In this document: positions 8,047 through 13,017 of the stretch, one piece after another
Position numbering within the stretch: the first letter of the stretch is position 1
How the letters are laid out: every line of letters starts with the position of its first letter
Source: Acinetobacter sp. 10FS3-1
GTDB lineage: Bacteria > Pseudomonadota > Gammaproteobacteria > Pseudomonadales > Moraxellaceae
Length of the DNA stretch: 16,045 nt
NCBI RefSeq assembly: GCF_013343215.1
Contig: NZ_CP039148.1
Span: forward strand, 1 to 16,045
Reading direction: 5' to 3'
The notes under the pieces: model-generated
Databases searched by the model: none
What the model was told of the DNA's origin: nothing
Seen by the model: only the letters and a program-made list of their open reading frames with translations
Position numbers and translations under genes: made by a program

Positions 8047-8343
8047 ATGTTTTTTATGGAACAGTATTTCGAATGGGATGAGGCAAAGAATCGAAAGAAT
8101 CAGAAAAAACACGATGTCTCTTTCGAAACGGCAAGCCTTGTTTTTGAAGATCCTCTGAGGATCTCAATTCAGGACAGACATACCGATGGTGAAGAACGTT
8201 GGCAAACCATTGGAAGAGTAAAAGGCGTACTAATGCTATTAGTAGCTCACACCATCTTCGATGAAGATGGCTTTGAAATCATACGAATCATTAGTGCAAG
8301 ACAAGTCACTAAGGCGGAGCGAGATAAATATGAGCACGGTTAG
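8047..8343 (+). CDS. brnT: BrnT family toxin
   Basis: A 98-residue type II toxin with an RNase-like fold, expected to cleave RNA and stop growth when free of BrnA. The family pattern is clear: YFEWDEAKNRKNQKKHDVSF near the N-terminus, FEDPLRISIQDRH in the middle, and IRIISARQVTKAERDKYE at the C-terminus. The start is ambiguous between 8047 and the ATG at 8056, which would give MEQYFEWD; neither has a clear Shine-Dalgarno. The gene overlaps brnA by 14 nt, the usual coupled layout with the toxin first. The pair sits alone in its pdif module between terminators, as addiction modules on Acinetobacter plasmids often do. Confidence 0.95.
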   Translation: MFFMEQYFEWDEAKNRKNQKKHDVSFETASLVFEDPLRISIQDRHTDGEERWQTIGRVKGVLMLLVAHTIFDEDGFEIIRIISARQVTKAERDKYEHG

Positions 8344-8644
8344 ATACTCACGCAAAGAACTAAATGAAAAATTTAGTGAGAAGCAAGATGCTGAAATTCA
8401 ACGCTTGCTTGCTAAAGGGACGGTTCCTGATGATCAGCTAGATCTATCAGATATTCCTGAAATTACAGACTGGAGTAATGCTGTACGCCATAATCAATTC
8501 TATCGCCCAGTGAAGCAACAGACTTCCATTCGTTTAGATGCTGATGTACTTGCATGGTTTAAAGCTCAAGGTAAAGGCTATCAAACACGAATGAATGAAA
8601 TTTTACGAGATGCTATGCTCAAAGAATTAAAAAATCATCAATAA
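8330..8644 (+). CDS. brnA: BrnA family antitoxin
   Basis: A 104-residue antitoxin that neutralises BrnT and represses the operon. The start is the ATG at 8330 (MSTVRYSRKELNEKF), inside the end of brnT, with GGAG about 14 nt upstream. An upstream in-frame ATG at 8261 would only read through brnT in another frame. The C-terminal half carries the ribbon-helix-helix DNA-binding segment (QTSIRLDADVLAWFKAQG, then YQTRMNEILRDAM) typical of BrnA. The N-terminal half (SDIPEITDWSNAVRHNQFYRP) is the toxin-wrapping part. A terminator follows immediately after the stop. Confidence 0.95.
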   Translation: MSTVRYSRKELNEKFSEKQDAEIQRLLAKGTVPDDQLDLSDIPEITDWSNAVRHNQFYRPVKQQTSIRLDADVLAWFKAQGKGYQTRMNEILRDAMLKELKNHQ

Positions 8645-10763: not shown

Positions 10764-10768
10764 AAAAA

Positions 10769-10788
10769 ACCTAGGCACCGGCCTAGGT
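10769..10788 (-). terminator. Linker terminator 3 (kinase-phosphatase operon)
   Basis: ACCTAGGC (10769-10776) pairs with GCCTAGGT (10781-10788). The T-run on the minus strand would end leftward transcripts from the phosphatase gene. Confidence 0.85.
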
Positions 10789-10839
10789 CTTAAATTTTAA
10801 AAAATACATAAAAATCAAGGCTATAGTCTTAATTTTTCA

Positions 10840-10867
10840 ACTTCGCATAATGTGCATTATGTTAATT
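10840..10867 (+). other. pdif site 13 (XerC-XerD orientation)
   Basis: XerC arm ACTTCGCATAA, spacer TGTGCA, XerD arm TTATGTTAATT. The spacer differs at two positions from the usual CGTGTA. Confidence 0.9.
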
Positions 10868-10877
10868 TTAGGAAAGC

Positions 10878-11594
10878 TTAAGATATTTGAACACCTACTA
10901 ATGTAAAATTATCTTTAGGTTCATTCTCTTTACATTTAGAGACTAATTGAAAAAAGTAATTAGAAAATTCCTTTTCTTGTAGCGCTAAATCTCGGAAAAA
11001 TTTTTTCGTAATAACCTGATAAAAACCATCTGAGAGAATTAAAACTCTATCATCAGGTTTAACAGTGAATATTTTTGATTGATAAGTAAATCCATCTTTT
11101 ATACCTAACGCATTCGTAAGTATATTTTTTCTTGGGTACACTAAAGCTTCTTCTTTAGAGAGAACCCCTTCAGACACAAGTTTATTTACTTCAGTATCAT
11201 CAATCGTAAGCTGTTTTAGCCCCATTCCTCGAATAACATAAAGTCTAGAATCTCCTGCATGCACTACATGCATTTGTTTGTTCTTGATAAAAGCAACTGT
11301 AAGAGTTGTTGCCATATTTTTTAATTCAGGAACACTACTTCCTTGCGTGATTAGAGCTTCATGCGCTGATTTCATACTGATTTCAAGTGATTCTTTAATA
11401 GAATTTTTTTCTACTGAATTAGAAAAAGACTTGTAGAATGTAGAAATTGCAAGTTTAGAAGCAATTTCTCCTCCATTATTTCCTCCAACCCCATCAGCAA
11501 CAGCAAGTAATAACCCCGCTCCACAAGAAGCACTCATGTAATAGTCTTGATTGGAAGACCGAGGTCCAATACCTGTATAGTAAAGAGGGAACAC
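10878..11594 (-). CDS. PP2C-family Ser/Thr protein phosphatase
   Basis: A 238-residue soluble metal-dependent phosphatase, expected to remove phosphate from serine/threonine residues, probably those set by the adjacent kinase. All family motifs are present: GPRSSNQD (10-17), VADGVGG (32-38, metal-binding D34), MATTLT (94-99), HAGDSRLY (112-119, D115), LSDGF (187-191, D189) and KDNFTLVGV (227-235, D228). Its length matches single-domain bacterial PP2C proteins such as PppA/PstP catalytic domains. There is no membrane helix. The start is GTG at 11594, directly abutting the kinase stop (zero gap) and without its own strong ribosome site, so translation is probably coupled. Codon use is AT-rich like the kinase. 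It ends 10 bp from pdif site 13. Confidence 0.95.
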   Translation of the reverse strand: MFPLYYTGIGPRSSNQDYYMSASCGAGLLLAVADGVGGNNGGEIASKLAISTFYKSFSNSVEKNSIKESLEISMKSAHEALITQGSSVPELKNMATTLTVAFIKNKQMHVVHAGDSRLYVIRGMGLKQLTIDDTEVNKLVSEGVLSKEEALVYPRKNILTNALGIKDGFTYQSKIFTVKPDDRVLILSDGFYQVITKKFFRDLALQEKEFSNYFFQLVSKCKENEPKDNFTLVGVQIS

Positions 11595-12902
11595 TTAAGA
11601 ATCACCAAAATAGTCGCGTAGTGTGATAGGAAGCTTATTTCTTGAAGTAGAAATAGATCTTTCAAGATGATTCAATCTAGCACAAACTTCTCTATGACCT
11701 ATCACTCGAGCCTCGAGTGTAAATCTCTTACAAACTCGATCATTTGCATCTATTGCATATTTCATGAATTTTTCTTCCACATACCATCTATTATGACTAG
11801 CTCCCATAATGAGCCATGCTAGTAAAATATGTGCTTTAAGACCTACATCATTTAAAGAAATATAGAATTTTTCCAATTTACTTGCTATCACATCACATTT
11901 CGTAAAATCGTGTGAAATTTTTCTTACCCAAGATGCGTAAACAGTAGCAAATCGGATGGCAATGTCAGGGAAGATTAAAATATTTTCTATCGTCTCATTA
12001 GATAATTCATTAAAAATATAATAGGAGTCATCATCATAGATATCATCCTCCAAATAATTAACTATTTTCTGAAGAGTGTATTCATCATATACAGGAGTAT
12101 TTAGTAAATATTCTCTGAAATTTAATGCTGACTGTGATACATCAAGATCATCGTCGCTATCAGATAAGCTTTCGACTAAAACCTCTCGCAAATCACTAAC
12201 ATTACTAAATCTCTGAGCTGGATTTTGTCTTGTGCAAATTTCAATGATATCAGCAACTCTTGAGTTAGGATCACTAATAGTCTGACAAGGTACTCTCGAT
12301 CTAGTACCAAAGAGATCATGTAAAATACACCCAAAAGAATAAATATCAGTGGCCTTAGTTGCATTACGTAACTCTTCAACAATCTCTGGAGCTGTATAAA
12401 AATCACTGCCCATTCGAAGTCCAGTTTGAGTTAATGCCGAAATTTGCGTGTCTTTTAGTGACACTAATCCAAAATCACTAATTACATAGTTATCACCTAA
12501 ACGTAAAATATTTTGAGGCTTTAAATCTCTATGTAAAATATCGAGTGAATGTAGCTCCTCTAAACCAGCAAGAATATCTAATAAAGCAACTAGAGCATCT
12601 TTAATATTTGCTTTTAAATAAGATATATCATCAGCTAATGAACTATCAGCTAATGGCATAATGTAAGACGGAGGATTTGTTTGTAAATCTGAATCCAAGA
12701 TAGGCATAATATTGGCGTGATTGATGCCTGATAAAATACTCACTTCTCGAATGAATCGCTTACGGACATTATCAATTAATGACATTTCCAAAGAAGTCTG
12801 AGGGCGGAAAGTTTTCTTTGCCGCTTGTGATCCATCTAGGTACTCAATTAAGTTAACTTGACCAAACCCACCACAACCAATTTCTTCTAAAACTCTATAC
12901 AT
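11595..12902 (-). CDS. Soluble Ser/Thr protein kinase with unknown C-terminal domain
   Basis: A 435-residue Hanks-type kinase. The catalytic domain (about 1-250) is complete: glycine loop GCGGFGQV (9-16), ATP-binding lysine K29 in AAKK, alpha-C glutamate E53 in FIREVSIL, HRDLKPQN (124-131, catalytic D126), DFG (143-145), APE (171-173) and DIYSFG (186-191). It is an RD kinase, so activation by phosphorylation of its Thr-rich activation loop (residues 150-170) is plausible. Residues about 255-435 form a helical, acidic then basic region (ESLSDSDDDLDVS at its start) that matches no family I know and contains no membrane helix, PASTA or FHA signature. Unlike most bacterial Hanks kinases it is therefore fully cytosolic. 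It is co-transcribed with the PP2C gene that follows. The ATG at 12902 has a weak ribosome site. Confidence 0.95.
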   Translation of the reverse strand: MYRVLEEIGCGGFGQVNLIEYLDGSQAAKKTFRPQTSLEMSLIDNVRKRFIREVSILSGINHANIMPILDSDLQTNPPSYIMPLADSSLADDISYLKANIKDALVALLDILAGLEELHSLDILHRDLKPQNILRLGDNYVISDFGLVSLKDTQISALTQTGLRMGSDFYTAPEIVEELRNATKATDIYSFGCILHDLFGTRSRVPCQTISDPNSRVADIIEICTRQNPAQRFSNVSDLREVLVESLSDSDDDLDVSQSALNFREYLLNTPVYDEYTLQKIVNYLEDDIYDDDSYYIFNELSNETIENILIFPDIAIRFATVYASWVRKISHDFTKCDVIASKLEKFYISLNDVGLKAHILLAWLIMGASHNRWYVEEKFMKYAIDANDRVCKRFTLEARVIGHREVCARLNHLERSISTSRNKLPITLRDYFGDS

Positions 12903-12934
12903 ATTATTAATTTATAAAGACTGATTTGCTAAAA

Positions 12935-12940
12935 ATTATA
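12935..12940 (-). promoter_or_regulatory. Candidate -10 element of the kinase operon
   Basis: TATAAT on the minus strand, 32 nt upstream of the kinase ATG. The sequence further upstream is very AT-rich and shows no good -35 (TATAAA at the right distance is the closest). Transcription would start near 12928. Confidence 0.55.
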
Positions 12941-12989
12941 GCTTAAATTATTTAAACTTTATAAAAATTTTTAGAACTGAAATATCGAT

Positions 12990-13017
12990 ATTTAACATAA
13001 AATCTCTTATATGAAAT
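12990..13017 (-). other. pdif site 14 (XerD-XerC orientation)
   Basis: XerD arm ATTTAACATAA, spacer AATCTC, XerC arm TTATATGAAAT, identical to the site at 10736. It is the right border of the modular cargo region, 7 bp from the end of the mobilization accessory gene. Confidence 0.92.

Follow-up and report, generated by a model that had tools for sequence, protein, structure and literature searches.

A mobile kinase-then-phosphatase gene pair on an Acinetobacter plasmid, most likely an anti-phage switch

Kinase and phosphatase genes within a pdif module

The window, the whole stretch of DNA analysed here, comprises one complete contig (16,045 bp) from the 3.65-Mb genome of Acinetobacter sp. 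10FS3-1. Because it encodes a Rep_3 initiator and a MobA/MobL relaxase (Pfam matches), the replicon is most likely a small mobilisable plasmid. A kinase gene and a PP2C phosphatase gene were found where the first-pass annotation had placed them, among the following features:

10766..10791, minus strand: candidate terminator hairpin past the PP2C gene, consensus match only
10840..10867, no strand: pdif site C|D, downstream module border, 3 mismatches to a hand-typed consensus
10878..11594, minus strand: PP2C-type Ser/Thr phosphatase of 238 aa, its GTG start immediately following the stop codon of the kinase
11595..12902, minus strand: Ser/Thr (Hanks) kinase, 435 aa, kinase domain at about 2-248, predicted all-helical C-terminal domain at about 250-435
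11598..12155, minus strand: kinase C-terminal domain (tail), predicted helical and solenoid-like, CD...SHNRWYV, no Pfam family
12990..13017, no strand: pdif site D|C, upstream module border, 1 mismatch to a hand-typed consensus

The two genes abut with zero gap, the kinase TAA being followed directly by the GTG of the PP2C gene, and both lie on the minus strand within a single module (10840-13017) with oppositely oriented sites. The pair is thus bounded by opposed XerC/D sites, as a pdif (dif) module is, and its earlier description as a complete module was borne out. No further non-overlapping ORF of at least 60 aa lies between the two sites. In the window, 15 pdif matches with up to 3 mismatches were detected (1.8 expected from shuffles), 13 of which conform to the C|D or D|C consensus and divide the plasmid into modules. 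Terminator-like sites in the module region numbered 4 against 0.7 expected. Promoters were at chance level (12 found, 11.2 expected) and were left unused. The spacer at 10764-10839, between two adjacent pdif sites, contains a two-way terminator-like hairpin.

The plasmid records sharing DNA with the module region are all from Acinetobacter (17 of 17). The same pair is carried by the A. schindleri plasmid p4AsACE at 88% DNA identity; the common block runs from 10832 to 13010, i.e. up to the pdif sites, and other shared blocks (BrnTA, recombinase) are arranged in a different order. On p4AsACE only the downstream pdif site was found within 5 mismatches, the upstream one being degenerate. In A. 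tibetensis, a kinase of 43-44% identity is flanked, together with its PP2C, by two opposed pdif sites. Sequence comparison shows that the pair is exchanged as a pdif-bounded unit. Each of the three Acinetobacter plasmids that carry a tailed pair also has BrnT/BrnA genes near the module (window 8047-8644; L003:4946-5534; L004:6514-7102); they adjoin it in two of these plasmids and are 2.2 kb off in the window.

The kinase matches Pkinase (E 4e-31) and the phosphatase PP2C_2 (E 2e-16) in Pfam. Kinase residues K30, E53, HRD124-126, K128, N131 and D143 are identical in all 31 aligned pairs, as are D17, D34, G35, D115, D189 and D228 of the PP2C; E173 of the kinase APE motif is conserved in 30 of the 31. 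Judged by these residues, both catalytic sites are intact. The catalytic motifs were thus complete, as first annotated, and only the number given to the catalytic lysine had to be changed from K29 to K30 (A28 and K30 are invariant). Between the window and p4AsACE, dN/dS was 0.048 for the kinase (at dS 0.59), 0.080 for the PP2C (at dS 0.52) and 0.053 for the kinase tail alone, which indicates that all three are under purifying selection.

The pair has features in common with the signalling pairs Stp1/PrpC and PknB/PrkC, namely a single-domain Stp1-type PP2C and an adjacent kinase gene. However, it is mobile, lacks PASTA, carries an unnamed tail and falls below both NCBIfam cut-offs (PP2C, 192 bits to Stp1_PP2C_phos, cut-off 230; kinase, 99 bits to PknB_PASTA_kin, cut-off 450). 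These scores are what speaks for a housekeeping PrkC/Stp pair or a pair of the T6SS PpkA/PppA type, an explanation that we consider very improbable. Its occurrence is patchy and on mobile DNA, and the window PP2C is the sole PP2C_2 match in the host genome, which has two other Pkinase matches, one of them above cut-off. A link to T6SS genes, like a tail that matches a known housekeeping domain, had been set in advance as an observation that would count against the roles first suggested; the VipB and Pfam searches gave neither. The single T6SS marker searched for, VipB, gave no match in the host genome (its control was positive in E. coli only), and a PpkA/PppA role is unlikely on that marker.

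The C-terminal domain of the kinase

The kinase had been described as lacking a membrane helix and any PASTA or FHA part, and as having instead about 180 unrecognised C-terminal residues. Judged by Pfam, the AlphaFold2 model and reading of the sequence, a membrane helix is probably absent, and no FHA (PF00498), PASTA or CSD (PF00313) family was matched at E<=0.1. For the tail (residues ~250-435), no Pfam family reached a meaningful score (best E 0.013 over 8 members scanned), the best PDB sequence match had only E 0.32 and viral structures gave no match under E 0.001. On these values, identity with a known domain was dropped. AlphaFold2, run on six sequences, returned eleven helices (pLDDT 88, pTM 0.84), and the tail is confidently predicted to be an all-helical, solenoid-like domain. 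Among solved structures, HEAT/ARM-type solenoids come closest in fold, but with scores in the range that helical repeats reach through a common arrangement.

The tail is common to 12 kinases, the window kinase and 11 others from Acinetobacter plasmids (L003 and L004), viral contigs (L011-L014 and L056-L059) and one distant MAG, Candidatus Electryonea (L001). Viral contig L012 and E. coli KV7 (L015) represent one and the same DNA. Residues L266, D337, H370, N371, R372, W373, V375, R393 and E397 are invariant across the 12 tails, so that the motif H-N-R-W-x-V and D337 occur in all of them; C336 is kept in 11. With its conserved HNRW motif, the tail is a tangible candidate for a sensor or a substrate dock. 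A PP2C gene lies directly 3' of the kinase gene in 10 of the 12, and none lies beside L014 and L057.

A divergent tail is present in one Streptomyces kinase encoded on a plasmid (L005, E 5e-12) and on two 11-kb contigs of same-genus genomes (L009 and L010, E 7e-8); beside these kinases, too, PP2C is missing within the DNA examined. The Streptomyces kinase (L005:5755-7320, 521 aa) has HNRW in its divergent tail, and about 80 residues ahead of its kinase domain resemble a helix-turn-helix by eye, with no Pfam match there. The kinase of L009 (621-2628) and L010 has 445 aa, and in L009 BrnTA-like ORFs adjoin it (by reading).

Relatives of the pair and their neighbours

Viral contigs and plasmids also contain tail-less kinases of about 255 aa followed by a PP2C, examples being those of Cronobacter phage phiES15 and of L016-L036 without L019. 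They share with the window pair the order kinase then PP2C and differ from it in lacking the C-terminal domain. The two genes overlap by 4 bp in 18 of 24 aligned short pairs, and the short-pair kinases have a mean identity of 33% to the long clade. PP2C was found downstream of 56 of 65 distinct viral-contig kinases (>40 bits and >180 aa; 7 were solo and 2 at contig ends). This fraction is biased upward, because the contigs came from a kinase-profile retrieval in which 16 of the 17 profile sequences were themselves paired and only the 80 best of 222 were retained. After clustering at 70% identity, 34 of 42 viral-contig kinase clusters were paired. Kinase matches occurred in 481 plasmid records; ten were examined and seven chosen for host range, and in six of these seven PP2C lies directly downstream, the exception being Leclercia (L049). 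Distances among the kinases are correlated with those among their PP2C partners, both in 17 dereplicated short pairs (r 0.84, reached in 0 of 5000 permutations) and in 6 long pairs (r 0.74, 49 of 5000), showing that, at the level of sequence, the two proteins co-diverge within both groups.

This distribution bears on the idea that the pair serves maintenance of its plasmid or prophage only, with the kinase as toxin, the PP2C as antidote and no defence role. The genes are adjacent and probably translationally coupled, pdif modules of small plasmids often hold toxin-antitoxin pairs, as described in PMC13141974, and BrnTA accompanies the pair in each of the three plasmids noted above. On the other hand, those plasmids thereby already have BrnTA, many relatives reside in viral contigs, and tailed kinases occur without PP2C. 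Plasmid maintenance, one of the roles first suggested, is therefore less favoured, given the many relatives off plasmids and the two tailed kinases without an adjoining phosphatase, and we regard a purely maintenance role as unlikely.

The short pairs also suggest two other roles. In several prophages they sit between lysis genes and terminase (by reading), and an Arsenophonus short pair lies near an S24 repressor-type gene. Such positions would fit a role in governing mobile elements that share the cell (their lysogeny or plasmid copy number) through phosphorylated host DNA-binding proteins, for which the action of the KKP system through MvaU, introduced below, is a precedent (PMC11341870). 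However, no conserved partner gene was seen and the plasmid modules have no prophage genes, which makes this role improbable for the window pair. In two Acinetobacter genomes, short pairs adjoin an aconitase-like gene (named by reading), one on a 3.6-Mb contig (L007) and the other on a 137-kb contig (L008), as would be expected of accessory cargo that benefits the host through metabolic or stress regulation. Those two pairs are without a tail, though. A tail-profile search matched only the own genome among 369 Gammaproteobacteria and 398 Pseudomonadota genomes (overlapping samples), and within the genus a match to the full-length kinase at E 1e-20 was obtained in 6 of 175 genomes, of which two have a close tail. 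We therefore hold a metabolic or stress role to be quite unlikely.

Recurrence of the pair beside pdif sites or defence genes, a survey proposed at the outset, was seen in individual examples, which do not amount to an enrichment test, among them the modules of A. tibetensis, p4AsACE and A. baumannii plas3_LRT, and a P2 prophage. The tailed pair of E. coli KV7 belongs to a P2 prophage, in which the portal gene flanks it on one side and replication-endonuclease/DUF3850 genes on the other; the L013 pair adjoins the same portal gene (by reading). The P2 gpA–gpQ interval is described as an anti-phage hotspot that is also home to genes of other function (PMC9122126). We sampled 60 of 1686 E. coli records of this interval, in which some names are shortened and many span one flank only. 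Other tenants in this sample were the retron Ec48 effector, a SIR2 anti-phage protein and DUF4238, and a kinase/phosphatase was named only in KV7. A near-identical copy of the KV7 type was found by megablast, which would miss divergent copies, in 1 of 5426 E. coli genomes. The tail genes of the KV7 P2 prophage hold a second accessory pair, GmrSD_N (DUF262) with RiboL-PSP-HEPN (L015:22959-24573).

On A. baumannii plas3_LRT, a tail-less pair and Septu PtuAB share one pdif module, PtuA/PtuB and kinase-PP2C lying between one opposed set of sites (L047:3454-7558); this looks like a composite defence module. In V. tubiashii p251, PtuAB is found about 3 kb upstream of a tail-less pair, which also adjoins an annotated restriction endonuclease without a PADLOC match. 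An Old/AriA-like ATPase gene lies downstream of the pair in V. echinoideorum, and a RelE/ParE-type pair lies upstream of kinase-PP2C on A. johnsonii pAJ4132. Not every gene carried by prophages and plasmids serves defence, however, which weighs against the defence reading.

Known defence kinases and a proposed two-gene switch

The window PP2C matches the PADLOC candidate-defence model PDC-M21C (E 7e-12). Among the 25 of 34 PADLOC matches listed, those of the kinase are to kinase domains and only MkoA extends further, to residue 342, a point against the defence reading. The similarity to PD-T4-6 and Stk2 is one of kinase domains (best E 9e-35 and 6e-29), but their best matches end in or near the window kinase domain. 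With PADLOC used without a cut-off, the matches to the best PD-T4-6 models span 12-206 of 327 and 11-215 of 292 positions, and that to the Stk2 model 129-361 of 500. PD-T4-6 defence is not known to have a phosphatase partner. Stk2 defence has none (PMC11341870).

The closest tested analogue is KKP (PfkA-PfkB-PfpC; Guo et al. 2024), a prophage cassette of two kinases and a phosphatase that acts in phage defence and is found mostly in prophages, including P2 and P4 (PMC11341870). According to that description, the two KKP kinases are jointly toxic and arrest growth, a single kinase being not toxic; the PP2C is the antitoxin that neutralises kinase toxicity, the T4 protein Gp59 inhibits this PP2C, and KKP phosphorylates host DNA-binding proteins, acting through MvaU (PMC11341870). 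The window pair resembles KKP in combining a mobile Hanks kinase with a PP2C. In contrast, KKP as described has two kinases, the order PP2C-kinase-kinase and tails of the CSD (PfkA) and FHA (PfkB) type, whereas the window has one kinase, the order kinase-PP2C and a helical tail without CSD or FHA (PMC11341870). With a single kinase and no CSD or FHA, the pair is ruled out as a KKP member and set apart by what is described of that system. Besides KKP, no two-gene kinase-PP2C phage module was described among the matches listed from open-licence PMC literature.

The pair is real and mobile, and its conserved helical tail matches no curated family. We propose that it forms a two-gene kinase-then-phosphatase switch (KP), most likely acting in anti-phage abortive infection in the manner of KKP (probability roughly 0.55). 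The suggestion of a reversible switch in phage defence draws contextual support from the occurrence of relatives on viral contigs, within the P2 hotspot and near Septu, and from KKP as a tested analogue. By analogy, the pair is probably an abortive-infection or defence switch. We infer that the kinase is toxic, that the PP2C acts as its antidote, what triggers the pair, what the tail does and that the pair serves defence at all. As long as cells are undisturbed, the co-translated PP2C would keep the kinase and its substrates dephosphorylated. An invader that inhibits the PP2C or engages the helical C-terminal domain would set the kinase free, and the freed kinase would phosphorylate host proteins and cause growth arrest. 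The arrest might be reversed once the PP2C regains dominance.

The two tailed kinases without PP2C, together with the single KKP kinases described as not toxic, argue against a simple toxin–antitoxin pair (PMC11341870). Since a single kinase is insufficient in KKP as described, toxicity of the kinase alone is the chief point of doubt about the proposed switch (PMC11341870). Against the abortive-infection reading stand the missing PP2C beside L014, L057, L005 and L009/L010, promoter matches not above chance, a trigger that was not found and the rarity of the KV7-like copy.

A bolder and more tentative reading, which we would sooner doubt than accept, is that KP pairs make up an anti-phage family of two genes that is widespread and as yet undescribed. 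The HNRW tail would then be a phage-sensing, kinase-licensing helical domain, so that one kinase does the two-kinase job of KKP. The KP switch proposed above, if real, would in its turn take phosphorylation-based phage defence beyond the three genes of KKP to a minimal cassette of two, mobile through Xer recombination, and would offer a compact model of a defence kinase restrained by a phosphatase and then triggered.

Two observations concern further prophage and phage genes. In L030/L115, a prophage short kinase is split into ORFs of 92 and 160 aa, with the PP2C frame open. The PP2C of L011, L012 and L018 match only the C-terminal part of PHROG phrog_5650 (275-519 of 565 positions at most), and from this match longer phage PP2C with an additional N-terminal part seem to exist.
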